A DNA stretch of 64,000 nt, from IMG/VR virus record IMGVR_UViG_3300047550_001767, positions 1 through 64,000 of that record; one strand, 5' to 3'. Position numbers and translations under genes: made by a program. The stretch comes from a virus. The notes under the pieces were generated by a model. It had not been told where the DNA came from and did no database searches. It saw only the letters and a program-made list of their open reading frames with translations. Positions 7,088 through 31,776 of this stretch are shown here, piece by piece (position 1 is the first letter of the stretch; each line of letters opens with the position of its first letter).

Positions 7088-7567
7088 TTATTCCAATATC
7101 TCAAAGGTAAGATGTATTCTAGGGCTAGTACCAGCATTTACAAACGTATGGGGGCGACCATTGTTAACAATGTATACACTACCGTCTGCAGGCATACTAA
7201 AACACCGATGTTCGTATACAAACCAGCAGCCAGGATTAGTAATTAATGGAATATGAAAGCATAATTGTCCAACATCTACATGCCAATTATAAGCAGTATT
7301 TGGCATTATACTACGATAGGTTATACTATTAAAATCAAATATTTTCTTAATATCATCTGCAACTTCCAGCGTATATGATAATTGTGTTTTTTCATTGGCC
7401 CATTCATTACATTTAAGTACGTGAAACTTTTTCTGCACAAGCACTTGATTACCATGATTGCTGACATCTAGTAATTTGTCTTGAACCGTATAATATTCTT
7501 GTAATAAGGTAGATAAATTTGCTTTGATATTAGGAAATTTGTCAAGAAAAGGCACAGTTGCTTTCAT
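7088..7567 (-). CDS. Aspartyl/asparaginyl beta-hydroxylase-like 2-oxoglutarate oxygenase
   Basis: A 159-aa protein with the Fe(II)/2-oxoglutarate facial triad. HVD is at residues 96-98, the distal His at 140 (GRPHTFVN) and the cosubstrate Arg at 150 (PRIHLTF). The spacing and the context YNWHVDVGQLCFHIPL match the Asp/Asn beta-hydroxylase family, which hydroxylates residues in proteins or small molecules. I use the ATG at 7567. A longer reading frame would begin inside the tmRNA and pass through its terminator hairpin, so it is unlikely. Its target is unknown; the virion or modification-island proteins are possible substrates by inference. Confidence 0.8.
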   Translation of the reverse strand: MKATVPFLDKFPNIKANLSTLLQEYYTVQDKLLDVSNHGNQVLVQKKFHVLKCNEWANEKTQLSYTLEVADDIKKIFDFNSITYRSIMPNTAYNWHVDVGQLCFHIPLITNPGCWFVYEHRCFSMPADGSVYIVNNGRPHTFVNAGTSPRIHLTFEILE

Positions 7568-7572
7568 CAAAA

Positions 7573-7580
7573 TATTTATA
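7573..7580 (-). promoter_or_regulatory. TATAAATA late-promoter-like site
   Basis: A perfect T4-type late promoter core, TATAAATA, on the minus strand between the tmRNA terminator and the oxygenase gene. It lies only 6 nt before the ATG at 7567, so initiation would give a leaderless mRNA. It may instead be an accident of the terminator's T-rich tail. Confidence 0.35.
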
Positions 7581-7606
7581 AAAAGAAAGGTCCCGTAGGA
7601 CCTTTC
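7575..7606 (-). terminator. Intrinsic terminator of the tmRNA gene
   Basis: GAAAGGTCC pairs perfectly with GGACCTTTC around a UACG tetraloop (UNCG class) at 7606-7585 on the minus strand, followed directly by TTTTT and an AT-rich run. It ends the tmRNA transcript cleanly. Confidence 0.9.
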
Positions 7607-7925
7607 CTGACTATTGGTTAATAAGGGTGTCACCCCCATCTAGTGTGCCCTTAGGCTGCTAGAGCAAATGTTTCATCATTTGCGTTTACTTTGTTTTACG
7701 CTAATTACGTTAGTCGTCTTTCGGACTGTCTGTTTGGGTACTACTTGCCCTGTCGAAACTAGTCATCCCCTCTGGAGGATTTCCCCATCCTACTAATCTA
7801 GACCATTCACGTTCTGTATAGAACAAATTTCGTGGGCTATCTACTAATTTGGTGGAGATGGTGGGATTCGCACCCACGTCCAAAACATTTTTCCCGTCAC
7901 TTCCTACAGTCATATCAACCTCTAC
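7585..7925 (-). ncRNA. ssrA: tmRNA, circularly permuted (two-piece)
   Basis: Trans-translation RNA with its halves in permuted order. The acceptor half comes first (about 7925-7850): a T-arm reading GTGGG-TGCGAAT-CCCAC, then CATCTCC and an encoded ACCA ending at 7850. A spacer of 79 nt follows (7849-7771), containing a GTTCT/AGAAC hairpin. The coding half starts at 7770 with GGGGATGACTAGTTTCGACAGG, the classic tmRNA 5' end. GGGGATG (7770-7764) and CATCTCC (7860-7854) pair over 7 bp to make the acceptor stem, which proves that the two halves form one tRNA-like domain. The spacer would be removed after transcription. The tag frame is at 7683-7651, and the strong hairpin at 7606-7585 closes the gene. 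The exact 5' end is approximate. Confidence 0.93.
7651..7683 (-). other. tmRNA proteolysis-tag reading frame (ANDETFALAA)
   Basis: Inside the coding half, GCA AAT GAT GAA ACA TTT GCT CTA GCA GCC TAA encodes ANDETFALAA followed by a stop. The ANDE start and ALAA end match bacterial tmRNA tags (E. coli: ANDENYALAA), and ALAA is the degron read by ClpXP-type proteases. The intact tag implies that the RNA is functional rather than a relic. Confidence 0.92.
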
Positions 7926-7931
7926 TATAGG

Positions 7932-7939
7932 TATTTATT
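7932..7939 (-). promoter_or_regulatory. AATAAATA late-promoter-like site before the tmRNA
   Basis: AATAAATA on the minus strand overlaps the stop codon of the 74-aa gene. Initiation 5-8 nt downstream falls at about 7925, just where the acceptor half begins. This would make the tmRNA a late transcript. Confidence 0.5.
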
Positions 7940-8159
7940 CGGCATTGCTTACAAACTCATTGAGTTTCTTTGCTTCTAGAATAATATCTTCTGTAGTCGG
8001 TGCTTTGGGCATTGGTGGAAACGGTGCATTAGGATTTACATCCCGTGCAGCATTCCATTGCATTTCCAAATTTGATCTTTCGTAAAAGTATGGCTCAAAG
8101 ATGCTTTCCTTGGCCAGTCTTAATAGATCCAGACGGATCTCGTATGGTGATTTGCTCAT
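7935..8159 (-). CDS. Conserved phage-type hypothetical protein, 74 aa
   Basis: A 74-aa, charged, probably helical protein. It begins MSKSPYEIRLDLLRLAKE, a start that resembles small proteins of marine T4-like phages, and has a proline-rich centre (NPNAPFPPMPKAP). The function is unknown. The start at 8159 is well supported by a perfect AGGAGG Shine-Dalgarno 5 nt upstream, which is stronger than for most genes here and suggests high expression. A TTATAAAA box about 25 nt further upstream may be its promoter. The tmRNA follows immediately, with its late-promoter-like site overlapping this gene's stop codon. Confidence 0.8.
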   Translation of the reverse strand: MSKSPYEIRLDLLRLAKESIFEPYFYERSNLEMQWNAARDVNPNAPFPPMPKAPTTEDIILEAKKLNEFVSNAE

Positions 8160-10748: not shown

Positions 10749-10828
10749 TTCTGGTTTATCTCTAGCACCTGCAGAGTGCCTTGATCCTTAAACTAAGCCA
10801 TCGCTATGCGACAAACACTACACCAGAA
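10749..10828 (-). ncRNA. Structured RNA element beside the tRNA-like element
   Basis: An 80-nt segment closed by a 7-bp stem, TTCTGGT with ACCAGAA, five nucleotides before the tRNA-like element. Inside are two clear hairpins: TCGC-ATA-GCGA, and GGCAC-TCTGCAG-GTGCT. An alternative to the second is CTCTG-CAGGTGC-TAGAG, which looks like an anticodon arm but lacks U33. No T-loop is present. The cloverleaf-like branching and tandem arrangement suggest a real non-coding RNA. The family is unknown. Confidence 0.45.
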
Positions 10829-10847
10829 GGTTGTGCGGCTGTGAGAT

Positions 10848-10859: not shown

Positions 10860-11234
10860 TTATTCTAAAGGCAGTTCAATAAGTTTATTTTCACGATCCA
10901 AATACTTCATCTCAATCTTGACCGGATGAAAATCACGTAATGCTTCTACTACGTCATATGGGTCAAGATACCCGCAAGTATAAACGTCAAGTTGTACTAG
11001 GGCGGGCTTGTCCTCGTCCCAAATATGTAGTGCGATATGACTGGTTTCAATAATTGCTACAGCAGTAAGACCACGATTGCCTTCTACGTTTAAATACTTA
11101 GCGTATGGGCCCATCATGACCTTCATGCCAATCTTGTCTACAAGTTTGTTCATCCATTCAATAGCAACATTTTCGTCAGTAATGGGCTTGCCGACTTCTG
11201 CACGAATTATAAGATGTTTATGTACTACTGCCAT
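10860..11234 (-). CDS. speD: S-adenosylmethionine decarboxylase
   Basis: A 124-aa AdoMet decarboxylase of the short prokaryotic class. It supplies decarboxylated SAM, the aminopropyl donor for spermidine. Residues 62-68, IETSHIA, carry the autoprocessing site where Ser65 becomes the pyruvoyl group. His66 and, further on, Cys87 (QLDVYTCG) fit the catalytic set. The length matches the Thermotoga-type single-chain proenzyme. The start at 11234 follows GAGGA. No spermidine synthase lies nearby, so the host must provide it. speD is a known auxiliary gene of marine cyanophages. Its product also removes SAM, which the many SAM-using enzymes here compete for. Confidence 0.9.
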   Translation of the reverse strand: MAVVHKHLIIRAEVGKPITDENVAIEWMNKLVDKIGMKVMMGPYAKYLNVEGNRGLTAVAIIETSHIALHIWDEDKPALVQLDVYTCGYLDPYDVVEALRDFHPVKIEMKYLDRENKLIELPLE

Positions 11235-11240
11235 ATATCC

Positions 11241-14200
11241 TCACTTGTATTTTTTTCTGTAATATTCTTTTAACCAAGTCCATTCATAAGACTTCTTAAG
11301 TTCTTCAATATCACCCATTACTTGATCGTAGTATTCTACAGCGTCTAGTGCTCCTTGTATACTGTATTCGGAAAATTCCCCTTCTCCTACAGTTAACCAA
11401 GTTGATAATCTATCACTGGCTATGTCGCTGTAATCACTTTTTAGTTTGATGACTTCTCTAAAGGCAGTTCTCCAAGTACTATAAGGATCAGTATTAAATG
11501 TTGCAACACCACTTAGTATATCAACACTTTCATGCGGGTCATCTAGCGTAAAGTCAAGACCCTTACCCGTATTGGCTAATGTTAATTTTTTATTATAGGC
11601 AATTAACGCTTGGTGTCCATATACTAATCCGTTTACAGGATTTTTCGCATTAAAAATATAATGTTTTGGTATTTGTAATCTGTCTGGTTGCCAACCCCAA
11701 TCAAATTTATTATTGACCTTTAACTTAGCAAATACAGTAAATGCCCAAGGTGTTTGACTTGCTTCTAATGCTGCATGATAACCTTGTACACGACCGTCTA
11801 CGCCATCAACACGAACGATACGATTACTAATACCTTTAGTGACGGCTAACAGATGTTCGTAATTTTCGTCTGCGCATAGTTCACCGTTGCTGAGAAATAC
11901 GATGTCTAATGGCTTACTTTTACTTAATCTATTAGCCGTCTTGATATAAGGATAATCATACAACTCGTTCTTAACTATATCTTTTGCTTCTTTAGGAACA
12001 ATAATTCTTGAACAACCCGTACTTGTGATTACTAAATTTTTTGATTCTTTATCCCATAAACTTATTGGTTCGTCAACATAACTTGCAAAATCTTCTGTAG
12101 CAAAAATCATGTAAGGGAAACTAAAGTCAACATTTAAACTTCCAACATGAGTATCATTGTCTACACGCACAACCGGTGCTGATATTCTTTTTGCTTTTAC
12201 AGATGAATTATAAGTTACTTTTGGATACTTGCGTAAATCTTCTAATGAATTTATAATCTCTCTTGTTAGGTTTACATCAATCAAGAAAGTATCGCCAAAT
12301 TTTTGAGTTTCGCTGTAGAACACATGCAGATTATCTCTAGCAAACGGATCACATATATAACTAAAATCAAATTGTCCGTAATCGCAAATACTTGAACAGA
12401 TCCATAAGTAGTGATCTTTTTTAGTTGGTTGATTTTTTACAATAGTTTGTAAAGTTTCCAAATATGTATTATTATACTTTATAACACTTACTGTTTTGCC
12501 ATTACTTTTTAGTGTCAATAAATCTTTTACCTTGTCTGTGTCTTTATTATCATGATCAATTAATACTATATCATACAAATTATTTGTAGCAACTGCTCTA
12601 CGATCCTTGACGAAATTTAGGTTACTTAAATGCTCTATAATTTTAATATATTTTGTATCAATAGCAAATGTTTCACGATTAACTAAAAAGGTTGTGCCCC
12701 AGTGACTCCACTGTGTGCCAAACACATGTACCATTCTTGTTTGATATTGATTTGGATAATAATTAAAATTGAAGTTTGAATAATCTAATTCACTGTTTAG
12801 TATCCAGCATAGTTCTGTATTACTACGATTAATACAACGATTAATTGTATCTACCCAACTATTTAAGAAACGTGTTTTTTGTATATTAGGGAATTTTATT
12901 TTAAGTTTTTCAAAGCGATCTTTTGCTTCAATATTACCTTTGTCTACAAAGAACATATCATTAGGCTTAAAAAGTTTTGCTAGATATTCTTCATCAACAT
13001 TTGTATTTGGTTCAACATAGTTTAGGTCTGTAAATCCTTGACGATATAATGGTGCTGATACAAAGTAAGTCTGTGTTACATCATAGTCAGGACTGCCAAA
13101 TACCTGCACATAACGTGATTGATCAACAGTTGGACGCCAACTAAAATCAAAATTAGTATAATCAATATTTTCACGAACAGCCCAAAATGTTTCTTCGGGA
13201 TGTTCAAGTACTAAATCATCCAACGTTACTGTAATTGTATAAACAGGTACATATTTAATTTCTAAACGTGTAACTTCAGTTGTATTATTTTCCTTGACCT
13301 CAATCATCTCAACGATAGGTTCTTGAGTATTGCTTACATATACTCTAGGTAATTTTACAATTTCTCCCTTATTACCTGGTGCTACGTAGCGAGGACCGTC
13401 ATTCTCATTCTCAGATGTGCCAAATTGATAAATTTTTGGTTCGTATGTTGAATCAGGTAACCAACTAAAATCAAAATCAGAAACATCAACTCCGTCTGGT
13501 ATAATCCAGTTATTCATAGAAGGTTTAGTAGTTGCTCGTATAGCATCTATAAACTTTTTAAAGTTTGCTCCATCTACAGTATATATAGGACCATTACGTT
13601 GTATACCAACCATTACGTCCCATACTGTTGCAAATTCATAGATATAAGGAGGATCAGTATCATCCGGATGCCAACTAAAGTCAAAGTCTTTAATATTTTC
13701 AGGTATAGTCCAGTTATCTTTGTTAGGTAACTTTTTAGCCTTTAGCGTTGTATCATATTTGACATTAACTGCTCCGGCTACAACATAAGATGGGCCTCCC
13801 GTCTTTTGCCACTGAGTACCGAATTGATAAATCATTGGCGGGTCAGTATCGTCTGGATGCCAACTAAAGTCAAAATCTGCTATATCATTAGGTATAACCC
13901 AATTTTTATTACTTGGCAATTTAATTGCACCTTTAATATCAGTTACGTATTTGATTTCAGACGCTTCAGGCACTACATACTTTGGTCCGCCTGTCTTTTG
14001 CCATTGCGTTCCGAACTGATAAATGTAAGGTGGGGACTGTGGATGAGGTACCCAACTAAAATCAAAATTACTAGTATCTAATCCTTCTGGTATTTGCCAA
14101 TTAGACTTATCAACTTTAGTAGTTGCTTTAACATCTTCTACGTATTTGTTAAATACTGCTTCTGGTACAGTATACACCGGACCACCGCGACTATTCCATA

Positions 14201-17200
14201 CAGTGGCAAATTCATAGATATATGGTGGCTCTGTATCATCTGGGTGCCAACTATAATCAAAATCCTTAATGTTATCTGGTATAGTCCAGTTGTCCATACT
14301 AGGGAGTCTTACAGCCTTAACAGCATCTATATATTTGATTTCTATACCACCTTCTACAACATAACGAGGGCCTCCCGTTTTTTGCCATTGTGTACCGAAT
14401 TGATAAATGTACGGAGGGTCAGTATCGTCTGGATGCCAACTGTAATCAAAATCACCAATGTTTTCCGGTATACTATAATTATTCCTGTTAGGTAATTTAA
14501 TAGCACCTTTTACATCTGTTACATATGTAACTTCAGTTGCTCCCGGTACAACATATCTTGGACCACCTGTCTTTTGCCATTGTGTCCCAAATTGATAAAT
14601 GTAGGGAGGGGCTTGAGGATGCGGTACCCAACTAAAGTCAAAATTACTAGTATCAACATCATTGGGAATTTCCCAGTTATTTTTACTTGGTTTTAACGTT
14701 GCAGTTACATCTTCGATATATTTGTTAAACACTGCATCAGGCACAGTATACACCGGACCGCCGCGATTATTCCATTGAGTAGCAAACTCATAAATGTAAG
14801 GTGGTTCTGTATCGTCAGGGTGCCAACTGTAATCAAAATCTTTTATATTTTCAGGTACAGTCCAATTGTCTTTACTTGGCAATCTAGTTGCTTTTACTTT
14901 GTCAACATACTTAATATCGACAGCGCCATCTACGACATACTTTGGTCCACCCGTCTTTTGCCATTGTGTGCCGAACTGATAAATCATTGGTGGGTCAGTA
15001 TCGTCTGGATGCCAACTATAATCAAAGTTTGTAATGTTGTCAGGTATAATCCAATTCTTTTTAGTTGGTAATTTTATTGCACGTAATTGACTTACATAAT
15101 TTACGAATGTTGTGCTAGGATCAACACCGGGCGCTACATATCTTGGCCCGCCTGTTTTTTGATGTTGTGTACCAAATTGATAGACGTAAGGCGGTGCTGT
15201 ATTATCGGGGTGCCAACTAAAATCAAAACTATCAATATCTAACCCATCTGGAATTATCCAATTATCTCCTCGAGGCAGTGCCTTTGCTTTATTATCGCCG
15301 CCAACATAATTAATTTGCTTTGCACCAGGCACTTCAAATCTTATACCACCGTTATCTTGCCATTGTGTACCGAATTCATATATGTATGGAACTTCTGTGC
15401 TATCTGGATGCCAACTAAAGTCAAAGCCTGTGCTGTCAATATATTCAGGTATTACCCAACGCGGATCTTTACTGTTAGGTAAATATGTTGCTTTTTGCCA
15501 GTCAACATATTTAATTTCTGTTGCTCCGGTAACTGTATATGTAGGACCACCTGTCTTTTGCCACTGCGTACCAAATCTATAAACATAAGGCGGTTCTTTA
15601 GGACTTGGCTTCCAACTAAAATTAAACTTAGTTACATCTAAGTTTTTAGGTATAGACCAGTTGCGTCTATCTTGTCCTAATGTCGCTTTTATATGTGAAA
15701 TATATTTTTCATATATTGCACCCTCGACAACATACTTAACGGTTGGCATAATCTCTGCATCATGATACTGGTTTCCAAACAAGTAAATGTATGGAGGATC
15801 AGTATCATCCGGGTGCCAACTAAAATCAAATGATTCTATGTTATAATCATCAATAATTTCAAATTTAGATTTATTTGGTAGTGCTTGAACCTTTTGCTCA
15901 ATATATTGTGCGTGTGTCGCACCCTCAACAACATATTGAGGTCCACCTGTCTTTTGATGTTGTGTGCCTGCTATATAGATATATGGAGGGCTTGTGGGAT
16001 TAGGTACCCAACTATAATCAAACATACTATCATCAATATTTTCAGGTACTATCCAGCGAGGTTTGTTTGGGGCTAGTATTGCTTTAACACTATCAATGTA
16101 TTTGGTATGCATTGCTCCTTCAACAACATATTGTACTGTTGGCATAATTTCTGCTTCATAGAAATTGTTACCAAACTTATATACATATGGAGGGTCACTA
16201 TCATCAGGGTGCCAACTATAATCAAACTGTAGTACTGGCGCATCTATAATTTCAAACTTAGACTTATCTTCTAATTTTCTAACTTTCTTGTTAAGATACT
16301 TAATTTCATCTGCACCTTCAACTACATATTTAGGTCCACCAGTTTTTTGATGTTGTGTTCCTGTAACATAAATGTATGGTGGGTCTTTGGGGTTGGGCAC
16401 CCAACTATAATCAAACATACTATCATCAATGTTTTCTGGTACAAGCCAGCGTGGCTTATTAGGTGCTAATGTCGCTTTGATATCATTAATGTACTTGACA
16501 TACATTGCTCCTTCAACAACATATTGTACTGTTGGCATCATTTCTGCTTCGTGGAAATTATTTCCAAATTGATAAATGTATGGAGGATCGCTGTCGTCAG
16601 GATGCCAACTATAATCAAAATCACTTATTGGGGCATCTGTTATGATTTCAAATTTAGATTTATCTTCTAACTTTATAACTTTTTGTTTAAGGTATTTAAA
16701 TTCAGTAGCACCTTCTACTACAAATTTAGGACCGCCTGTCTTTTGATGCTGCGTACCTGTAACATAAATGTATGGTGGATCCTTTGGATTAGGTACCCAA
16801 CTATAATCAAATGTGCTATCGTCAATACTTTCTGGAATAATCCAGCGTGATTTATCTGATGTAAGTTTAGCCTTGACGTTATTAATATACTTGACGTACA
16901 TTGCACCTTCAACAGTATATTCTAGTGTTGGCATAATCTCTGCATCATACAATGTATTGCCAAACTGATAGATATATGGCGGATCAGTATCGTCTGGATG
17001 CCAACTATAATCAAAATCTTCTATTTCGTACTCAGTCAATTCTGCAAATTTAAGTTTGTTTGGCAGTTTCTTCACAGTCTTTTCTAGGTACTTTATTTGT
17101 GTAGCGCCGTCTACAACGTATCGCGGACCACCTGTCTTTTGATGCTGTGTACCTGCAACATAGATATATGGAGGTTCACTTGGTTTAGGTTTCCAACTAT

Positions 17201-19370
17201 AGTCAAAATCACTGTCATCAATGTCATCAGGCATAATCCATGCTGACTTATCTTGCGCAAGTGTTGCTATAACGTCATGTACGTATTTGTATTCAGTCGC
17301 TCCTTCTACCACATATTCAAGGGTAGGCATATTCTCAGCATCATAAAACTGATTGCCGAATCTATAGATATAAGGAGCATCTGTATCATCTGGATGCCAA
17401 CTATAATCAAAACTGTCAATTTTGTAATTATTAAAAATTGTAAACTTGTTCTTATTAGGCAACTTTGTTGCTTTTTGAACATCAATGTATTTTACTGGAC
17501 TATTATCATTTGCACCTACTGCATAATAACTTGGACCTCCGGTCTTTTGCCATTGCGTACCAAACTTATATACGTAGGGTTGATCTTCAATACTAGGATG
17601 CCAACTAAAATCAAAATTTTCAACATATACATCATTAGGAACTTTCCAACGTTCTAAATTCGGTACTGCTACAGCACTGATGTTTACATATTGAACTTCT
17701 GTTGCATTAGCAACCGTATATATAGGTCCACCTGATTTACCCCATTGTGTACCAAATTGATAGACATATGCCGGAGCAGTATTATCAGGATGCCAACTAA
17801 AATCAAAACTTGATTCATCAATATTATTTGGAATTTGCCAATTATTTTTATTAGGCAGTGTTTTAGCACGTTGTATGTCCATGTACTTTATTTCTGTTGC
17901 ACCTTCAACTACATACTTAGGACCGCCGTTATTCTGCCATTGTGTACCAAACTCATATACATAAGCAGGATCGTTGGGATTAGGTACCCAACTAAAATCA
18001 AAATCTGTAGTATCAATATGATCCGGTATGACCCAGTTATCCATTGATACGTCAAGTATGGCTACTACATCATGCACATACTTAATTTCTGTTGCCCCTT
18101 CTACTACATAACGTATAGTAGGCATATCTTCAGCACGATAAAAATTATTACCAAATACGTATATGTATGGTTGTTCTGTATTATCAGGATGCCAACTATA
18201 GTCAAATGATTTTACTTTAATATTTCCTATAATTTCAAATTTGTCAGGCTGTTGTTTAGTTTTTGCTTTTTGTAAATCAATATATTTTATTTCTGTTGCA
18301 CCGTCAATAATATATTTAGGCCCACCATTCTTTTGATGCTCAGTTGCAAACTCATAGATGTAGGGTGGGTCGTTAGGATTAGGGACCCATCTAAAATCAA
18401 ATGTTGAATCTTCTACGTTATCAGGTATGATCCAGTTTTCTTTGCTAGGTGCTAAAGTTCCCCAACAATCCTGTACATATTTCTTTTCAGTGGCTCCCGG
18501 TACGTGATACTCAACAGTTGGCATAGTAACAGCACTATAATACTGATTGCCGAACACATAGATATAGGGAGGTGATGTATTATCTGGATGCCAAGTATAA
18601 TCAAAATGCTCTAAGTTAATTCCTGGTAAAATTTGCCATCCGCTATCATTTTTTCTAGGTAATGCCCTAGCCCTTATACCGTCTACACATTTAATGTCTG
18701 TTGCACCCTCACAAACATATCTGGGTCCGCCGTTGCGTTGCCACTGTGTACCAAAATCATAAATCATTTCTGGTTCTCTAGGATCAGGTCTCCAAGAGAA
18801 ATCAAAAGTTGATAGGTCTATATAATCAGGTATTTGCCAACGTTCCCAGTCGGGTAATAATTCTACTACCGTTGACATATACTTTACTTCTTCTGCGCCA
18901 GGAACGATGTATTCCATGACATGTCCTAATTCTACAGGAAAATATCTGTTTCCCCAACGGTAAATGTAGGGAGGATCATTTGGATCAGGATGCCAACCGA
19001 AATCAAATTTTGATTCATCAACTTTATCAATCAAAACAAATTCTTTTGTTTTAATATTTTTTCTTTTTAATCTAGTAACATCTGACCTATAAATTTTAAC
19101 ATCACTATCGTTATTACAAACTAACCATGTGCCACTATCTTTTTGATATATGCTAGGCCATATATTAATATGATTTTCTGCCCAAACTTCATCATCTGAT
19201 AAAAATTCAAAGTCAAAGTCCCAATCAAATCCGGAGTAATCACAAAATTCGTTAATTATCCAAAAGTGTTCAGTTGTGGCTTGTTGCCTAGCATCATCTA
19301 GGTCTTGTGCAGGTCTTTCACGTGGATGAACGTTTGGCTTAGCGCCGTAATAAAAAACATCTCTCAGCAT
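11241..19370 (-). CDS. Giant tandem-repeat protein with C-terminal glycosyltransferase-like domain
   Basis: A 2,709-aa protein dominated by about 30 copies of a roughly 65-aa module: W.IP, a short spacer, FDFSWHPDDTDPPYIYQFG, then TQWQKTGGP and YVV.GATEIKYV. Two variants alternate in the N-terminal half: A (GTQWQKTGGP) and B (GNxFYxAExMPT). The last few copies, towards 12.3 kb, are divergent. The final 250 residues (IVRVDGVDGRVQGYHAALEA, NPVNGLVYG, STWRTAFREVIKL) align by eye with the stand-alone glycosyltransferase-like protein at 40698-41654. That domain also contains one FDWGWQPD copy, so the repeats may derive from a piece of this enzyme. There is no signal peptide or membrane segment. 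Its size and aromatic repeats suggest a fibre, adhesin or scaffold. Confidence 0.8.
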   Translation of the reverse strand: MLRDVFYYGAKPNVHPRERPAQDLDDARQQATTEHFWIINEFCDYSGFDWDFDFEFLSDDEVWAENHINIWPSIYQKDSGTWLVCNNDSDVKIYRSDVTRLKRKNIKTKEFVLIDKVDESKFDFGWHPDPNDPPYIYRWGNRYFPVELGHVMEYIVPGAEEVKYMSTVVELLPDWERWQIPDYIDLSTFDFSWRPDPREPEMIYDFGTQWQRNGGPRYVCEGATDIKCVDGIRARALPRKNDSGWQILPGINLEHFDYTWHPDNTSPPYIYVFGNQYYSAVTMPTVEYHVPGATEKKYVQDCWGTLAPSKENWIIPDNVEDSTFDFRWVPNPNDPPYIYEFATEHQKNGGPKYIIDGATEIKYIDLQKAKTKQQPDKFEIIGNIKVKSFDYSWHPDNTEQPYIYVFGNNFYRAEDMPTIRYVVEGATEIKYVHDVVAILDVSMDNWVIPDHIDTTDFDFSWVPNPNDPAYVYEFGTQWQNNGGPKYVVEGATEIKYMDIQRAKTLPNKNNWQIPNNIDESSFDFSWHPDNTAPAYVYQFGTQWGKSGGPIYTVANATEVQYVNISAVAVPNLERWKVPNDVYVENFDFSWHPSIEDQPYVYKFGTQWQKTGGPSYYAVGANDNSPVKYIDVQKATKLPNKNKFTIFNNYKIDSFDYSWHPDDTDAPYIYRFGNQFYDAENMPTLEYVVEGATEYKYVHDVIATLAQDKSAWIMPDDIDDSDFDYSWKPKPSEPPYIYVAGTQHQKTGGPRYVVDGATQIKYLEKTVKKLPNKLKFAELTEYEIEDFDYSWHPDDTDPPYIYQFGNTLYDAEIMPTLEYTVEGAMYVKYINNVKAKLTSDKSRWIIPESIDDSTFDYSWVPNPKDPPYIYVTGTQHQKTGGPKFVVEGATEFKYLKQKVIKLEDKSKFEIITDAPISDFDYSWHPDDSDPPYIYQFGNNFHEAEMMPTVQYVVEGAMYVKYINDIKATLAPNKPRWLVPENIDDSMFDYSWVPNPKDPPYIYVTGTQHQKTGGPKYVVEGADEIKYLNKKVRKLEDKSKFEIIDAPVLQFDYSWHPDDSDPPYVYKFGNNFYEAEIMPTVQYVVEGAMHTKYIDSVKAILAPNKPRWIVPENIDDSMFDYSWVPNPTSPPYIYIAGTQHQKTGGPQYVVEGATHAQYIEQKVQALPNKSKFEIIDDYNIESFDFSWHPDDTDPPYIYLFGNQYHDAEIMPTVKYVVEGAIYEKYISHIKATLGQDRRNWSIPKNLDVTKFNFSWKPSPKEPPYVYRFGTQWQKTGGPTYTVTGATEIKYVDWQKATYLPNSKDPRWVIPEYIDSTGFDFSWHPDSTEVPYIYEFGTQWQDNGGIRFEVPGAKQINYVGGDNKAKALPRGDNWIIPDGLDIDSFDFSWHPDNTAPPYVYQFGTQHQKTGGPRYVAPGVDPSTTFVNYVSQLRAIKLPTKKNWIIPDNITNFDYSWHPDDTDPPMIYQFGTQWQKTGGPKYVVDGAVDIKYVDKVKATRLPSKDNWTVPENIKDFDYSWHPDDTEPPYIYEFATQWNNRGGPVYTVPDAVFNKYIEDVTATLKPSKNNWEIPNDVDTSNFDFSWVPHPQAPPYIYQFGTQWQKTGGPRYVVPGATEVTYVTDVKGAIKLPNRNNYSIPENIGDFDYSWHPDDTDPPYIYQFGTQWQKTGGPRYVVEGGIEIKYIDAVKAVRLPSMDNWTIPDNIKDFDYSWHPDDTEPPYIYEFATVWNSRGGPVYTVPEAVFNKYVEDVKATTKVDKSNWQIPEGLDTSNFDFSWVPHPQSPPYIYQFGTQWQKTGGPKYVVPEASEIKYVTDIKGAIKLPSNKNWVIPNDIADFDFSWHPDDTDPPMIYQFGTQWQKTGGPSYVVAGAVNVKYDTTLKAKKLPNKDNWTIPENIKDFDFSWHPDDTDPPYIYEFATVWDVMVGIQRNGPIYTVDGANFKKFIDAIRATTKPSMNNWIIPDGVDVSDFDFSWLPDSTYEPKIYQFGTSENENDGPRYVAPGNKGEIVKLPRVYVSNTQEPIVEMIEVKENNTTEVTRLEIKYVPVYTITVTLDDLVLEHPEETFWAVRENIDYTNFDFSWRPTVDQSRYVQVFGSPDYDVTQTYFVSAPLYRQGFTDLNYVEPNTNVDEEYLAKLFKPNDMFFVDKGNIEAKDRFEKLKIKFPNIQKTRFLNSWVDTINRCINRSNTELCWILNSELDYSNFNFNYYPNQYQTRMVHVFGTQWSHWGTTFLVNRETFAIDTKYIKIIEHLSNLNFVKDRRAVATNNLYDIVLIDHDNKDTDKVKDLLTLKSNGKTVSVIKYNNTYLETLQTIVKNQPTKKDHYLWICSSICDYGQFDFSYICDPFARDNLHVFYSETQKFGDTFLIDVNLTREIINSLEDLRKYPKVTYNSSVKAKRISAPVVRVDNDTHVGSLNVDFSFPYMIFATEDFASYVDEPISLWDKESKNLVITSTGCSRIIVPKEAKDIVKNELYDYPYIKTANRLSKSKPLDIVFLSNGELCADENYEHLLAVTKGISNRIVRVDGVDGRVQGYHAALEASQTPWAFTVFAKLKVNNKFDWGWQPDRLQIPKHYIFNAKNPVNGLVYGHQALIAYNKKLTLANTGKGLDFTLDDPHESVDILSGVATFNTDPYSTWRTAFREVIKLKSDYSDIASDRLSTWLTVGEGEFSEYSIQGALDAVEYYDQVMGDIEELKKSYEWTWLKEYYRKKYK
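13060..19040 (-). repeat. Coding tandem repeats, unit about 195 bp (about 30 copies)
   Basis: The plus strand shows a near-constant marker, ccaact(a/g)taatcaaa-like (the complement of FD[FY]SW), at about 13133, 13459, 13671, 13858, 14049, 14244, 14433, 14629, 14822, 15010 and so on up to about 18991. Spacing is mostly 185-205 bp and always keeps the reading frame. Copies differ enough to show age, with stronger similarity within sub-blocks. Confidence 0.9.
13560..15070 (-). repeat. Higher-order repeat: three-module block, about 577 bp
   Basis: Within the tandem array, modules recur in sets of three. A DTDPP module with GTQWQKTGGP is followed by a DTEPP module (EFAT.WN.RGGPVYTVP.AVFNKY), then an HPQ(A/S)PP module. 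Marker positions 15010/14433/13858, 14822/14244/13671 and 14629/14049 are spaced 573-580 bp. This indicates recent segmental duplication, most likely by recombination. Confidence 0.8.
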
Positions 19371-19379
19371 AATGTTTAC

Positions 19380-20861
19380 TTATGATACGACTTTTAGTTT
19401 GTATAATTTTTCAAAACGGTCAGCATCTGATCTATCATTGACCATGGGTTCACCGCGTATATTGAGTGATGTATTGAGCAGCATAGGACAGCCTGTTTTA
19501 GCATACCATGCTTCTAATAATTGTCGTATCCCAGATCCATCTTTTGGAACTGTCTGAACACGACTAGTGCCGTCGTGATGAACAATAGCAGGATAAAGGT
19601 CAGGATGCTTGCAAGTAGCGATGACTTGCATATACCTACTATCACGCCAACCACGAGGCATAGAAAAATACTCATTAACATACTCTTCCAGAATGACCGG
19701 TGCAAAGGGTCTAAATTTTTGTCTACGTTTGATTTCATTTACTTTATCTTTTATTTCTGGGCCTCTTGGGTCTGCTAATAAACTACGATTGCCAAGCGCC
19801 CTAGGGCCAAATTCTGCTTTACCGCTGGCAACACCTACCATCTTTTTCTTAATTAATTGTTTAATTACTTCTTTAACTGGATATGGACCTTTGATATCAG
19901 TACCTAAAAATGCATTAGTCCAATTAACTTTTTTGCCATAACCTAATGCTGCTGCACCAAGACTATTGCCAGCATCACCCGGGTTAGGCATAATCCATAT
20001 ATCATGCCAATACTTACCTAACAATCTATTAGCAAGACAGTTCAATGCCACACCACCACCATATACAAGATTAGTGCTACGACCTATGCGTTTGGCTCGC
20101 ATCATAACTTTTTCAATTAGTGTTTCACAAAGAACCTGTGCGCTTGCTGCGATGTCCATATCGTCTGCTTTATCTAAAAAATTATTAGACCCAAGTCCTA
20201 TATGTAAATTTTGTTTAAAATCTAAATTTTCTAAATTTTCAAGTAATTGACTTGCCATACGTGTAGCATGGCTAGGCTTTCCATATGCTGCCATACCCAT
20301 AAGGATATATTCTTCATCCATAGGACGTAAACCTACACGCTGTGTCATGGCACTATAGAACATACCTATGCTGTTAGGATATTTCTTGCTCCATAGTTTC
20401 TTATATTGTGCATAGCCGTTGTCATCATACCATGCGTCCCATATAGTAATACAGTCCATTTCACCTATAGCGTCTATGACTACCACTGTAGCATCTTCAA
20501 AGGGACTTGTTTGAAATCCTGCGGCTGCGTGTGTCTTGTGATGCACATGAGTTTTGATTGTCATATCATCAAACATTTCTACAAGGTCAGCACCTATAAT
20601 CTGTTTGACGCTTAATGGTCCAATCTTCTGTCCTGCACGAAATTGACGTATGGCCTTCAACCAAGGTTTTTCATAGTAATGAATTTGATATGTGTCATTT
20701 ACATACGACAACGCTTCTTTAATTATACCCTGACACAAATTTGCATCATGCTTCTGTTTACTGTAACGCTCACTATGGCCTGCAAATAGGATATTACCCG
20801 AGTCTGAAATAACAGTTATTCCTGCATCGTGAAATCCGCAACTTATTCCTATATGTGTCAT
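19380..20861 (-). CDS. NodU/CmcH/TobZ-type O-carbamoyltransferase
   Basis: A 493-aa carbamoyltransferase that would activate carbamoyl phosphate with ATP and transfer the carbamoyl group to a hydroxyl of a sugar or antibiotic-like acceptor. The N-terminal ASKHA-type domain has GISCGFHDAG at the start and VYGGGVALNC and NPGDAGNSLGAAALGYG in the middle. The C-terminal YrdC-like region has GKAEFGPRALGNRSLLADPR, a family signature, then RPFAPVILEE and LLNTSLNIRGEPMV. Length is slightly short at the C-terminus but the core is complete. Its ATG overlaps the upstream SGNH gene as ATGA. It fits a role in decorating a glycan made by the island. Confidence 0.9.
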   Translation of the reverse strand: MTHIGISCGFHDAGITVISDSGNILFAGHSERYSKQKHDANLCQGIIKEALSYVNDTYQIHYYEKPWLKAIRQFRAGQKIGPLSVKQIIGADLVEMFDDMTIKTHVHHKTHAAAGFQTSPFEDATVVVIDAIGEMDCITIWDAWYDDNGYAQYKKLWSKKYPNSIGMFYSAMTQRVGLRPMDEEYILMGMAAYGKPSHATRMASQLLENLENLDFKQNLHIGLGSNNFLDKADDMDIAASAQVLCETLIEKVMMRAKRIGRSTNLVYGGGVALNCLANRLLGKYWHDIWIMPNPGDAGNSLGAAALGYGKKVNWTNAFLGTDIKGPYPVKEVIKQLIKKKMVGVASGKAEFGPRALGNRSLLADPRGPEIKDKVNEIKRRQKFRPFAPVILEEYVNEYFSMPRGWRDSRYMQVIATCKHPDLYPAIVHHDGTSRVQTVPKDGSGIRQLLEAWYAKTGCPMLLNTSLNIRGEPMVNDRSDADRFEKLYKLKVVS

Positions 20862-21703
20862 ATGCTTGACTCTTTATTTCTGTTTATACCATTAATTATC
20901 TTAATTATCTCTTTGGCTACAAAATCATGCACAGGTTGGCCAAAATGACCTCCCGGACAATGGATATTTTCATTGCCTAAACTGTAGGCAATTTTTAACA
21001 TGTCTACAGCAAAGGTTAAATTAGCATACTCTTTTAATATAATTAAGTCTTTATAATCAGTAAAATCTCGTTCCCAATATGCTAAATCTTGATGATTGTG
21101 TCTACATGCAATCCAGTTTATGGCTATGGCATTTACTTTACAAAACCCATTTAAAAAAATTACATTTTTATAAAAATTTATTAGGTTATGATAGTTTGTT
21201 TCATAAGTTATTTTATACTTAATGATTGAATCAAGAATTTCAGCGGTTGCGCTACGTTCTAAAATATTTAATAAATTATAACATTTCCAATATTCATTAT
21301 CTGTGGTATTATGTATTCCTAACTCAAATCTGTGTGGATTAGTTATACCTATAAATGCCTGTATAGGTATGTTTGGATTATTCTTTTTAATCTCAATTAA
21401 GTCAGTTACAGATGTGCGCACTATGCGATCCATACTGGAGCCACCTAGTCCTTTATTATAGGTTATAAACTTAGTTGCTTTAGCGACCTTTCCCGCAAAA
21501 CACCGTTCACGTTCGATTTTTGCCAGCTCTAAAACTCTTTTTTCTCTTTCACCTTGAACTTTTCCATACCATTTCCAATGAGCACCTTTAATATTAACAG
21601 TGAATGGATGAACAAAAGGTTTTAGTCCAGGATAATCTGGAAGAAGATCATCGGCTAATTCTGAGCCTGCAACAAAACTATCGCCATTAAAATACAGTAT
21701 CAT
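20858..21703 (-). CDS. SGNH-like hydrolase/acyltransferase-type protein
   Basis: A 281-aa protein with SGNH features. FNGDSF near the N-terminus (Ser9) is block I, LGGSSMDRI gives the block II glycine, and CPGGHFGQPVHDFVA near the end resembles block V with its histidine. The family includes esterases and acyl-group transferases acting on polysaccharides, so deacetylation or acetylation of a glycan is plausible; the canonical block III Asn is not obvious. It has no signal peptide and is predicted to be cytoplasmic. It is coupled by a 4-bp overlap to the carbamoyltransferase and is one of four SGNH-like proteins in the window. Confidence 0.65.
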   Translation of the reverse strand: MILYFNGDSFVAGSELADDLLPDYPGLKPFVHPFTVNIKGAHWKWYGKVQGEREKRVLELAKIERERCFAGKVAKATKFITYNKGLGGSSMDRIVRTSVTDLIEIKKNNPNIPIQAFIGITNPHRFELGIHNTTDNEYWKCYNLLNILERSATAEILDSIIKYKITYETNYHNLINFYKNVIFLNGFCKVNAIAINWIACRHNHQDLAYWERDFTDYKDLIILKEYANLTFAVDMLKIAYSLGNENIHCPGGHFGQPVHDFVAKEIIKIINGINRNKESSI

Positions 21704-24429: not shown

Positions 24430-25019
24430 TATTCACCCTTAAAAACTTTCATTTTACTTATATCAGGATATTCTTGATATGTCCAATGTTTAGGCGGTAC
24501 ATCTTTAATTATAGGAAATTTTTTGATACCTAACTCTGCTGTTTCTGGCGGCATATAATAATGATATCCGATCGTATCAATATCTTGTACTCGCCATGGC
24601 TTACTTAAATCACGACCATCATAACGCATTTTGCTTAATTTATTATATTGTTCTTCATTGTCTAGTAGTATAACACCGCCTCGTATTAGATTTAAGTGTT
24701 TTTGAAACTGAAAACTAATACACATTAGTGTACCCGGTATGTATCCGTTCTCTTTCCAATACACTGCTGCGTCAACAATATTAGTGTTGTTTAAATAATA
24801 ATAATTTTCCCATAGTTCATCAGTCCAAACATAGGGTATTCCTAATTTTGTAAATGTCATAGGTATGCTTGGATACGTATGGCGAGGACAGCCTGTAGTT
24901 TGAGGTTTTATAAGTCTTAAACATAATTCTACCGCATGTGTACAACAATCTGTTGCTACTGCATATGGCGCATTAAAATATCCTGCAATTAATTTTTCAA
25001 AATCATGAACCGGCTTCAT
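24429..25019 (-). CDS. Miniature DegT/DnrJ/EryC1/StrS-type aminotransferase
   Basis: A 196-aa PLP enzyme of the sugar-aminotransferase family, about half the usual 370 residues. Family features remain in order: the start of the large domain with an AVATDCCTHAVELCL block, Asp83 (IVDAAVYW) for the PLP ring nitrogen, and Lys107 in SFQFQKHLNLIRGG for the Schiff base. The C-terminal small domain is nearly absent. It could be a genuinely minimal enzyme or one needing a partner. It overlaps the B12 radical SAM gene by 17 bp and the amidinotransferase gene by 1 bp. Amination followed by amidination would make a guanidino group; this pairing is inference. Confidence 0.75.
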   Translation of the reverse strand: MKPVHDFEKLIAGYFNAPYAVATDCCTHAVELCLRLIKPQTTGCPRHTYPSIPMTFTKLGIPYVWTDELWENYYYLNNTNIVDAAVYWKENGYIPGTLMCISFQFQKHLNLIRGGVILLDNEEQYNKLSKMRYDGRDLSKPWRVQDIDTIGYHYYMPPETAELGIKKFPIIKDVPPKHWTYQEYPDISKMKVFKGE

Positions 25020-27249
25020 TAGGCACCTTTGATTTAAATGATACTACTTGTTCTTTTGGTTTAGAGACTTCTAAAGTTTTTGGTTTTTTCCAAGTTTCGC
25101 CGCCGGGTACTTCAATTATATATTTTTCCCAGTCGCTCCAATCTCCTTCACCTTCCCATACGTGGTCAAATGTAAAATTAACACACTGATTCAATATTCT
25201 TTCTTCTTCAAGTAACCACATAAATTCTTCGTGGTTTCTCCCTGCATCGCCCCACTTAGGCTTAGCAAATATTCTACTGCGCTTTGCTGTGTTAATATCA
25301 TAACGGCTATAGTCCTGAGCAAAGAAAGGACTTCTACGTTCAAGTGGATCCGGAGGATTTACATTTGAAGGTGGTTGAATAAATTTGATCCAACTTTTAG
25401 CCTTCCATTTACCTTCATCTGTAATTTCAAAGGTATGTTCTGCCCACATAGGACCAGCGTTACGATTGCCCCATTCTTTCATGTCTAGGTCTTCGTCAAA
25501 TATCATAACTCCTTTAAAGCCGCCTCTGGTGCGCCATAACATACGCCAAAACGCAAACATTTCATTAAACATACTATCAGCAAAAGGACTGATATTAGGT
25601 TTGGCTATGTTGTAGTCAAACTTTTCATATTCAATTTCTTTAAACAAATGTGGATGATTAAAATCTATTTTATAATGAAATTTAGGCAAATTTGATCTAT
25701 TAGGTATGACTACCGGCTTATCAAATTTTATGTTTTGTAAAAACGCAGCGAACATTTTCATGCGTTTTACAACGTGCATTTTACTCAATTTAAAGTCTTT
25801 TGTAATCCAATTATCCATGTACATATGATCTAGTACATTAAATCTTTCTAAATTTTGTCCTACAATACTTGTCGGGCCTAATCCAAAACCAAATCCTGCA
25901 GCGATATTTACTATTGATGTATTTCTATTACGCCATAAGAATGTCATTGTATCAGCAAAGTCTTGGTGTTCTTCGGTAGGAAATCCAATTAACCAATTAG
26001 TAAAAGCACCTATATTTGTTGTTGCGCCATCACGTAGATTTTGCTCCATCTCTTTAATAGTAACACCTTTGCTCATATCGTTGAGAACTTTTTGACTACC
26101 TGACTCAATACCGTAATTAAGCATTCTACAGCCACCGGCTGCAAGGTCTTTAAAGTATTCAAGATCCATGCGACCATCACAACGAGCATAACCAGTCCAG
26201 TTTATTTTAAATCCCTTTGCTGCTACTGCCTTTACAAAGGCACGCAACTCATTTACGTTGCCATTAACTAGACTATCAATAAACCAATATACATCGGTAC
26301 CATAATTGTAGTATAGATGTTCAACTTCGCTTACAGCATCTATTGACTGACGCTGACGATAGCGCCAAAAGTGTGTTTCTTCACAGAATGTGCATTTGGC
26401 TGTACATCCGCGACTTAACTGACTACACACACCATTTGGAAAACGATACTCATTAAAATCAAAGTGACTATAATCGGGCAGAGGTAAATTACTAATGTTA
26501 ATACGTTGTTCTTCTGGTTGGCGACGTATTTGTACCTCATCGTATGTTACACCGTTTTCAATTTCATCTAATATATCTAAGAATATTTGTTCCCCTTCAC
26601 CATTACAAATATAATCATATATTTTAGTTCGTTGGGCTTCTTCAGTTAATCTGCCTATTTGATTATGAGTATTACTTCCGCCTATTAATATTTTAACATG
26701 CGGTAATCTTTTTCTAATTTCTTTACACATATATTTAATAGGCTCTTCATTGCAATAGTATTGACTGAAGCCTATCACATCAGGTGGGTTCTCACAAATT
26801 TTGTTAAGATGCTCGTTAAATAAAGGTTCTACGAAAGGATGAATATCAGTGTAATAGTTTGATGCTAGCCATTTCCATTCTCTAGTCCCGTCCCATGGAT
26901 CAAAGTCCATTATTCCAGTTTGAACGTGGTGTCGCAAATATCTATAGGCTTTAATGTTTAAATCTAGTGCGGTAGTCTCATAGCCTGCACGTTTTGCAAC
27001 AGCAGTTAAAAGTGCTGTGTTGTACGGCGGAAATTCTGGAGCCCATTCGGGCATCAATATCATTAGTATCTTTGTTTTTCTTGTAGCATAACTTACATCA
27101 ACATCAGTTACGTTTTTCTGTACACTATTTTTTGCATAGGGAGCAATTGCTTCCATCATTACAAGATGTTTAGCATCAGCAATATCAGGAGTTGGTTTTT
27201 CGTTGGGCTTCCATTCTTTTTTGGCTAATGCCATAAACTCTTGATACAT
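25003..27249 (-). CDS. B12-binding radical SAM protein
   Basis: A 748-aa radical SAM enzyme. The N-terminal region (residues about 45-215: LMILMPEWAPEFPPYNTALL, IGFSQYY, ILIGGSNTHNQ) is a cobalamin-binding Rossmann-like domain. The radical SAM core has RGCTAKCTFCEE (CxxxCxxC, about residue 280) and later GGCRMLNYGIESGS and GFPTEE, which are family hallmarks. The long C-terminal part is unassigned. Such enzymes typically methylate unactivated carbon or phosphorus or rearrange carbon skeletons. It begins a block with the small aminotransferase and the amidinotransferase and ends the run started by the glycosyltransferase-like gene at 27252, with GAGGA as Shine-Dalgarno. Confidence 0.87.
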   Translation of the reverse strand: MYQEFMALAKKEWKPNEKPTPDIADAKHLVMMEAIAPYAKNSVQKNVTDVDVSYATRKTKILMILMPEWAPEFPPYNTALLTAVAKRAGYETTALDLNIKAYRYLRHHVQTGIMDFDPWDGTREWKWLASNYYTDIHPFVEPLFNEHLNKICENPPDVIGFSQYYCNEEPIKYMCKEIRKRLPHVKILIGGSNTHNQIGRLTEEAQRTKIYDYICNGEGEQIFLDILDEIENGVTYDEVQIRRQPEEQRINISNLPLPDYSHFDFNEYRFPNGVCSQLSRGCTAKCTFCEETHFWRYRQRQSIDAVSEVEHLYYNYGTDVYWFIDSLVNGNVNELRAFVKAVAAKGFKINWTGYARCDGRMDLEYFKDLAAGGCRMLNYGIESGSQKVLNDMSKGVTIKEMEQNLRDGATTNIGAFTNWLIGFPTEEHQDFADTMTFLWRNRNTSIVNIAAGFGFGLGPTSIVGQNLERFNVLDHMYMDNWITKDFKLSKMHVVKRMKMFAAFLQNIKFDKPVVIPNRSNLPKFHYKIDFNHPHLFKEIEYEKFDYNIAKPNISPFADSMFNEMFAFWRMLWRTRGGFKGVMIFDEDLDMKEWGNRNAGPMWAEHTFEITDEGKWKAKSWIKFIQPPSNVNPPDPLERRSPFFAQDYSRYDINTAKRSRIFAKPKWGDAGRNHEEFMWLLEEERILNQCVNFTFDHVWEGEGDWSDWEKYIIEVPGGETWKKPKTLEVSKPKEQVVSFKSKVPNEAGS

Positions 27250-27251
27250 AA

Positions 27252-28403
27252 TTAATCCTCAAATAGACTATCGATGGGAGGTCCTACTCTATGATCTGTA
27301 AGACTCAAAAGATATTTATAGTTATATTCCACTATAGGTTTAATATTTTTTTGCCATTCTAACCACTCATTTTTTGTAAATTTTTCCAAACGTTTAATTT
27401 CCTTTACTATCATATCAAATCTTTTATCCGGGTCCTGTTCGTTGTCATAACTTTCGTCTATATATGGGTGAAAAGTTTTATAGCCTCTTTGTTGTAACAC
27501 CTTAAGTGTTCCATGCCAGGCTATTGCTATAAAAGGATGTTTAAGTGCTAATGGTTTATAAATCTTTTCACTTAGGAAAAGTGTGTCCATATAATCAAAA
27601 AACGGACTCTTTTTTGAATCGTAAGGTTCATAAAGAGTTTCTGCGACTACGCTGAAATAACTTTCTTGATGGTAAATTAAATCATCGGGGCAAACATCAA
27701 CTGGATTATGTCTACTTTCAGTAATGTTTAATCTAAGAGGAAGTTTGTCTTTAATAGACAATATTTGTTTATATTCTTCATCTGAAATTAAGGGTAATTT
27801 ACTGTAGTTTTCGGGTTCCAACCAACCGGGAAATTGTCCTTCAAAACTAAAAAAAGATTTTTTAAGCCAATCATTTTTAATGGCTGCTGCTAAAAAGCGT
27901 AATCTATGATGTCTGTGAAGTTTATTAAAACATACAAATAATTTTTCTTTTTCTTTTATTTCATATGGTTGATTCAAATCAGGTTGATGTAGCGTATGCC
28001 AATATATAGTTTGTTCAAAATGATGTGCTCCTATAACGGTAAGTCTGTTATCCCAACCATATTTTTCACAAATTTGATCATAAAATTCTTGAGCGTGGGG
28101 TACGCCTACTGTAAAAATTAAATCTTTTTTGGGTATTTCTTTACATAGTTCAGCAATAGTTTGAACTTTAAATAATACTGAAAACAAAAAAGTTTCGCTA
28201 CTGTTAAAGAAAATAATTTTCTTTACAGGTTTTTTACTAGGTGTACCATGATATGCATCACGTACTTCCTTAACTAACTCTAATGTACTTCTTGAAACTA
28301 TACTATGGTCTACAAACGTAGAAGCATAGACCATGTAAAATTCGTCTTGCCAATATTTTAATTCAGGAAAACTACGTAAAGTGGCTTTAAGAGGACCAGA
28401 CAT
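27252..28403 (-). CDS. Glycosyltransferase-like protein (phage paralogue family)
   Basis: A 383-aa member of the paralogue family described for 8203-9258. The C-terminal block is FLSEKIYKPLALKHPFIAIAW, then QRGYKTFHPYIDESYDNEQDPDKRF. It is very close to the block in 30535-31773, so these two copies are the most recent duplicates. The N-terminal half is AT-rich in sequence and variable. A start at the ATG at 28403 is clear. It lies between the UDP-sugar dehydrogenase and B12 radical SAM genes, which fits use of a nucleotide-sugar donor. No donor-binding motif can be named with confidence. Confidence 0.7.
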   Translation of the reverse strand: MSGPLKATLRSFPELKYWQDEFYMVYASTFVDHSIVSRSTLELVKEVRDAYHGTPSKKPVKKIIFFNSSETFLFSVLFKVQTIAELCKEIPKKDLIFTVGVPHAQEFYDQICEKYGWDNRLTVIGAHHFEQTIYWHTLHQPDLNQPYEIKEKEKLFVCFNKLHRHHRLRFLAAAIKNDWLKKSFFSFEGQFPGWLEPENYSKLPLISDEEYKQILSIKDKLPLRLNITESRHNPVDVCPDDLIYHQESYFSVVAETLYEPYDSKKSPFFDYMDTLFLSEKIYKPLALKHPFIAIAWHGTLKVLQQRGYKTFHPYIDESYDNEQDPDKRFDMIVKEIKRLEKFTKNEWLEWQKNIKPIVEYNYKYLLSLTDHRVGPPIDSLFED

Positions 28404-28435
28404 AAAATCTGATCCTGCTATAGTAGTATACTTGT

Positions 28436-29644: not shown

Positions 29645-29664
29645 GAATTCCTCAAATTTAGTTT

Positions 29665-29672
29665 TATTTATT
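29665..29672 (-). promoter_or_regulatory. AATAAATA late-promoter-like site
   Basis: AATAAATA on the minus strand, in a 45-bp gap 21 nt upstream of the dehydrogenase ATG. The spacing matches the other late-type sites, with GAGGAATTC as ribosome-binding region. Confidence 0.55.
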
Positions 29673-29689
29673 TGGATAAAATATGTAGG

Positions 29690-31773: not shown

Positions 31774-31776
31774 ATA

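Follow-up and report, generated by a model that had tools for sequence, protein, structure and literature searches.

The spacer between the two halves of a permuted tmRNA gene is usually treated as waste that is discarded in processing. Can it hold a gene? This question is raised by a locus in the 64,000-nt stretch of DNA analysed here (the window), the first 64,000 bases (1-64000) of a virus record that is 88,673 bases long. Novelty as a phage-borne permuted tmRNA was rejected, since such genes are published and common. Buchholz 2022 described one in phage Melnitz and, across sequenced phages, counted 53 two-piece tmRNAs, of which 50 came from aquatic phages (PMC9004378). The accessible part of a 2025 tmRNA database paper reports 97,179 tmRNA sequences, 79 from bacteriophages; it describes endonuclease genes in introns and, within intervening sequences, a single tRNA and a single repetitive element, and this part makes no mention of a protein gene in a permuted spacer (PMC11915505). 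Nor did we find a report of such a gene in the literature covered, which includes few subscription papers. We propose, with a probability of roughly 70%, that the window encodes a functional phage tmRNA and that the precursor of this RNA is also the mRNA of a 67-aa protein.

The tmRNA gene and its transcription unit

The only gene called by ARAGORN in the window is a permuted tmRNA with the tag ANDETFALAA (7560-7942, minus strand). With cmscan, RF04321 (tmRNA_permuted) scores 128.9 bits (gathering 47, E=6.8e-25) over 7911-7651 and RF01850 (beta_tmRNA) scores 124.1 bits (gathering 84, E=2.5e-37) over 7967-7582, where the beta model aligns end to end. A permuted tmRNA had been claimed here by a first-pass annotation made from the letters alone, and ARAGORN and the two Rfam models, both above gathering, bear this out for both halves. 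The 7-bp acceptor stem that it described across a 79-nt spacer could be traced as well: the strands GGGGATG/CATCTCC form 7/7 pairs, including a G3-U70 wobble, and are separated by exactly 79 nt. Such a wobble is the mark of alanine acceptors. The tag, claimed to be intact, is so according to ARAGORN and the sequence and is followed by its stop (7683-7651), and the proposed ends at 7770 and 7850 agree with the gene boundaries, which are positions taken from the sequence. The same annotation took the spacer for filler and overlooked the conserved reading frame in it. The T loop of the window reads TGCGAAT, versus TTCGAAT. A residue other than U at position 54 is unusual for a T loop; of the 191 phage tmRNA domains, about 40, the window's among them, have a loop of the type TGCGAAT or TGCGATT.

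The late promoter that had been suspected upstream (Table 1) is supported by the motif AATAAATA itself, by the strand bias of its core and by a gp55-type late sigma factor in the record (L167:974-1906, E=3e-74). All 12 copies of the core ATAAATA in the window lie on the coding (minus) strand, versus 52 expected over both strands, and elsewhere in the window the motif looks selected against. Several of the minus-strand sites lie just 5' of gene starts. The promoter motif is also found upstream in three related loci (L322, L333 and L048). At the other end of the gene, the UNCG-loop terminator predicted at first pass is present as GAAAGGTCC-TACG-GGACCTTTC with a U-tract, the hairpin proper spanning 7606-7585. 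The next late promoter, TATAAATA (7580-7573), overlaps this U-tract and serves the following gene; the tmRNA gene is therefore a short unit of its own. Thus, a TATAAATA-like promoter occurs together with a gp55-type sigma factor, as in T4-type late units, the start site being predicted. The record also contains T4-type baseplate genes. The window phage is T4-like and its tmRNA is of the beta type; a blastn search against sequenced phages returned no close relatives of the window.

Another ATAAATA (10854-10848) lies 8 nt before the start of a COG2908 RNA motif (RF02939, 73 bits, 10796-10840, minus strand), so that this motif probably forms the extreme 5' terminus of a late phage transcript.

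Table 1. Features of the tmRNA locus (positions in the window)
Feature	Position	Strand	Basis
T4-type late promoter motif AATAAATA	7932..7939	-	motif, strand bias, gp55-type sigma factor in the record
Shine-Dalgarno AGAGG, 5 nt 5' of ATG 7913	7919..7923	-	sequence
Overlapping ORF of 67 codons, MTVGSDGKNVLDVGANPTISTKLVDSPRNLFYTEREWSRLVGWGNPPEGMTSFDRASSTQTDSPKDD, putative start ATG 7913, TAA 7712-7710	7710..7913	-	open frame, selection tests
tmRNA acceptor piece (3' tRNA-like half, T arm, CCACCA)	7850..7911	-	ARAGORN, RF04321/RF01850
Spacer (intervening sequence), 79 nt; appears to encode the core LVDSPRNLFYTEREWSRLVGWGNPP	7771..7849	-	sequence, selection tests, homology
tmRNA coding piece, from acceptor 5' strand GGGGATG to end of tag	7651..7770	-	ARAGORN, Rfam models, sequence
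Proteolysis tag ANDETFALAA and stop	7651..7683	-	ARAGORN, sequence
Intrinsic terminator, hairpin GAAAGGTCC-TACG-GGACCTTTC with UACG loop, U-tract	7580..7606	-	sequence; folds as 9-bp hairpin

Phage and bacterial permuted tmRNAs

Six scans of IMG/VR for permuted tmRNAs, four with patterns and two based on proteins, yielded more than 200 viral loci; the domain boundaries are ARAGORN's own. In 190 of 191 distinct phage tRNA-like domains, all 7/7 acceptor pairs and G3-U70 are kept, and this with 21 different stems. The pairing across the permutation is therefore under selection and not due to chance; 21 stems with the pairing retained represent compensatory change on a large scale. Applied to the first 52 contigs that contain an ANDETFA-type stretch, ARAGORN found 42 permuted and 2 one-piece tmRNAs. 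One-piece tmRNAs with the tag ANDETFALAA occur on the viral contigs L036 and L041.

The resemblance of the tag to beta- and gammaproteobacterial ones, noted at first pass, is right in outline: among the full-length models a beta-type one fits best, and Burkholderia is the match that ARAGORN gives for the tag. In the bacterial loci from a tag scan (84,980 genomes), ANDETFALAA always belonged to a one-piece tmRNA (117 in one comparison). Permuted beta tmRNAs were found in only about 14 of 399 Burkholderia-order genomes, with other tags. In these data, the combination of permutation and ANDETFALAA is thus a phage one. We rejected the tag as an indicator of the host, because the one-piece tmRNAs that carry it in bacteria come from both Burkholderia-group and Colwellia-like species. 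The closest bacterial permuted tmRNAs, on a weakly supported tree, are those of three small genomes (L299-L301). Hexulose-phosphate synthase, used as a marker for Methylophilaceae, was negative or below the cut-off in 15/15 genomes. A Burkholderiales-order genome of 5.3 Mb (G271, locus L304) gives a beta_tmRNA match of 104 bits with an aberrant ARAGORN tag; this could be a prophage or a degenerate permuted tmRNA.

The window gene shares gene order, T arm, acceptor stem, resume region and a tag of the form ANDExxALAA with the betaproteobacterial permuted tmRNAs (RF01850). It differs from them in the spacer. Those of the 14 bacterial permuted tmRNAs from the 399 Burkholderiales-order genomes, which represent the beta group, are 25-43 nt long, whereas the window's has 79 nt and appears to be coding. 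The spacers of phage permuted tmRNAs have a median length of 85 nt and reach 232 nt. If phage spacers do house genes, this would explain why they are long and those in related bacteria short.

A reading frame under selection in the spacer

Seven further loci (L321, L322, L331, L333, L005, L048 and L014) form, together with the window, a group of eight window-type variants. Their spacers measure 79, 124, 91, 97, 79, 94, 94 and 79 nt and share as little as 56% DNA identity. In all eight, a frame is open from a conserved ATG (position 7913 in the window), while the other two frames contain stops. In the window, the 67 codons of this frame extend through the T arm, the acceptor strand and the entire spacer into the beginning of the coding piece. 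As all spacer lengths are 1 mod 3, the phase in which the frame enters the coding piece is constant.

Selection can be tested in the spacer only, because RNA structure imposes constraints of its own on the ORF where it runs through the two RNA halves. pN/pS was below 1 in 28/28 codon-aligned spacer pairs and 0.44 when pooled (0.21 for the window and L321, 0.15 for L322 and L331); since such pairs are not independent, tree-based tests carry more weight. On a tree made from the tmRNA parts only, which is weakly supported in places, parsimony changes at codon positions 1, 2 and 3 stood at 32:32:60 (p=3.7e-4). In 300 non-coding simulations with the same topology, branch lengths fitted to the spacer and a stop-free root, all eight frames were open in 2/300, and no run attained the observed third-position share or the observed amino-acid identity (0/300). 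The reading frame in the spacer is under purifying selection, and judging from its sequence the spacer appears to encode a conserved small protein. Part of the core is lost in L333. Neither Pfam nor PHROGs contains a match for the spacer ORF protein. Its AlphaFold model is of low confidence (pLDDT 54) and mostly unstructured, with one short helix over EREWSRLV.

Could this still be an ordinary phage permuted tmRNA, with a non-coding spacer whose open frame is due to chance or RNA constraint? Every defining tmRNA feature is present, and most phage tmRNA spacers do not contain an ORF, which fits such an explanation. However, it leaves the third-position excess, the eight stop-free frames, the length changes in multiples of three and the outcome of the simulations unaccounted for, and also the homology of the peptide to proteins encoded outside any tmRNA (see below). 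We therefore regard it as quite unlikely.

Stand-alone relatives of the spacer protein

A profile built from the eight spacer peptides only was run on six-frame translations of all 505 loci. It finds a stand-alone protein of 49 aa in L332 (MSDGRWWYTESEWSRLVGWGKLPEKYAK..., E=1.5e-8), on a contig stretch without a tmRNA, so that the core is homologous to a phage protein with a gene of its own. The same profile weakly matches YYYSEEEWNRLGCGPLP-type proteins. A profile of the latter finds six loci (L152, L503, L408, L132, L045 and L385), in which the protein is encoded directly upstream of a permuted tmRNA and on the same strand, at distances ranging from a 21-nt overlap to 303 nt; it also finds the spacer ORF of L014 (6e-4). 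Since the profiles match, the same small protein seems to have its gene next to that of the tmRNA in some phages, but within the tmRNA gene in the window lineage. Its recurrence at such places suggests that it acts together with the tmRNA, or merely that the two share late timing.

Spacer ORFs in other phages

A complete small ORF with its own ribosome site, strictly defined, was found in 18 of 158 spacers. Shuffling of the spacer interior with both ends kept gave 4.45 on average and a maximum of 9 (200 runs). The excess is most marked in spacers of at least 120 nt, 10 of 19 of which contain a complete ORF, versus 0.3 expected. In the layout of these nested ORFs, the CCA is followed by a TAAGGA-type ribosome site, a start codon, the ORF and a stop within a terminal TTATGAT that sits just before the coding piece. 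The spacer ORF of L115 corresponds to Pfam DUF2061 (E=3.5e-20) and has a diverged relative in L340, and three nested families of two or four members show pN/pS values of 0.08-0.37. The encoded proteins are unrelated to that of the window.

A terminal stem of at least 6 bp is found in 90% of the phage spacers of 40 nt or more, versus 9% after shuffling. In the eight window-type spacers, this stem comprises 1-4 bp, as expected if coding has replaced the hairpin.

The isolated phage Melnitz (L320/L504, MZ577097, 45984-46436) has a 142-nt spacer with a Shine-Dalgarno sequence and a candidate ORF, MFKWLSKTRLVVITRDYF..., which is unannotated in GenBank; the open frame MFKWLSKTRLVVITRDYFRERNRK... continues from the spacer into the coding piece. 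Homologues of this ORF were not found beyond four Melnitz genomes, and as a gene it is a candidate only. Melnitz resembles the window in being a T4-like aquatic phage with a permuted ssrA, with no need for a phage SmpB, and with a possible ORF in the spacer. It differs in its alpha-type tmRNA (PMC9004378), the tag ANDNYVPVDYALAA, a glutamine riboswitch and the unrelated spacer ORF, whereas the window has a beta-type tmRNA and a late promoter motif, with no riboswitch among its Rfam matches.

Where translation of the window protein begins is a separate matter. We favour ATG 7913, although its conservation is no proof of a start, because this ATG is also part of the conserved 5' consensus of beta permuted tmRNAs. 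The protein might instead originate from another transcript, or its translation might begin within the spacer. Such an origin would be in keeping with the nested ORFs of other phages, which begin within the spacer, with an in-frame ATG in the spacer of L048 and with the Shine-Dalgarno sequences before the conserved ATG: these are clear in four of eight variants (the window, L322, L333 and L048) and weak or unclear in the other four (L321, L331, L005 and L014). However, no start codon inside the spacer is common to all eight variants, as ATG 7913 is, and the stand-alone relatives reach N-terminal of the core. We consider either of these other origins unlikely.

The tmRNA precursor as a possible messenger

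If the precursor indeed doubles as an mRNA, events at this locus could run as follows. Late transcription from 7939 would lead from the gp55-type promoter to the intrinsic terminator as a short unit of its own. Cuts at the CCA end (7850) and at 7770, made by 3' processing and RNase P, would turn the precursor into a two-piece tmRNA that would be charged with alanine and work with host SmpB. Proteins from stalled ribosomes would then receive the tag ANDETFALAA, and host proteases would complete the job; tmRNA-mediated rescue late in infection is plausible. The uncut precursor would serve as mRNA. Ribosomes would start at ATG 7913, pass through the acceptor half and the spacer and stop early in the coding half, giving a 67-aa product with the conserved core derived from the spacer. 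As cutting would destroy the message, any one precursor would have a single use, as mRNA or as tmRNA. Ribosomes stranded on cut precursors would in turn be substrates of the tmRNA, which hints at a possible feedback. We give even odds to the wider proposal that in aquatic phages the spacer is a general site for small protein genes and that the window-lineage precursor is either translated or cut into a tmRNA that rescues its own caught ribosomes.

A host SmpB is assumed here because no SmpB was found in the 88.7-kb record, which is incomplete; 20 other phage records did not contain one either. The lack of SmpB in the record would also suit a tmRNA relic, or a decoy that sequesters SmpB, retained only for the embedded protein. 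There is a possible precedent in mycobacteriophage DS6A: according to the accessible parts of two papers, its tag-less tRNA-like domain resembles tmRNA inhibitors, and SmpB sequestering has been suggested for this RNA (PMC4131195, PMC11915505). The window gene, in contrast, combines an intact tag and stop with the fully paired acceptor stem and its G3-U70, CCA and a strong beta_tmRNA score, and the tag region is intact in 8/8 variants, with the tags ANDETFALAA, ANDDVYALAA and ANDDVYSLAA. A relic or decoy thus seems highly improbable to us.

A functional tmRNA that is also a message would have partial parallels. As described in the accessible part of the database paper, tmRNA genes with a group I intron homing endonuclease likewise carry a protein gene in a part that is removed (PMC11915505). 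The window has no endonuclease and no group I intron among its Rfam matches; the putative gene is carried in the spacer of a permuted gene, and the frame of the window family overlaps mature tmRNA sequence as well. SgrS/SgrT and RNAIII/delta-haemolysin are bifunctional bacterial RNAs, in which an RNA function and a small ORF share one transcript, as would be the case here. SgrS and RNAIII are regulatory RNAs, whereas the window RNA is a component of the apparatus of translation, and the ORF would be severed when this RNA is processed. If our main reading is true, a single transcript would be both translation machinery and message, with processing deciding between the two, and a class of small phage proteins would be hidden from gene callers by the RNA gene annotated in their place. 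As Melnitz grows on a cultured OM43 host, the idea is directly testable.

Other genes in the window

The window has further unusual contents. The cluster of radical-SAM genes at 25003-40698 on the minus strand, next to a UDP-glucose dehydrogenase, is unusual for a phage; of the at least five radical-SAM proteins encoded there, one has a B12-binding domain and two have SPASM domains. NAD synthetase, an AAA ATPase, S-adenosylmethionine decarboxylase and a Nol-like carbamoyltransferase are encoded at 568-2508 and 10860-21703 (minus strand). Two open frames on the minus strand, of 5682 codons (46689-63737) and 2709 codons (11241-19370), are very long for a phage.
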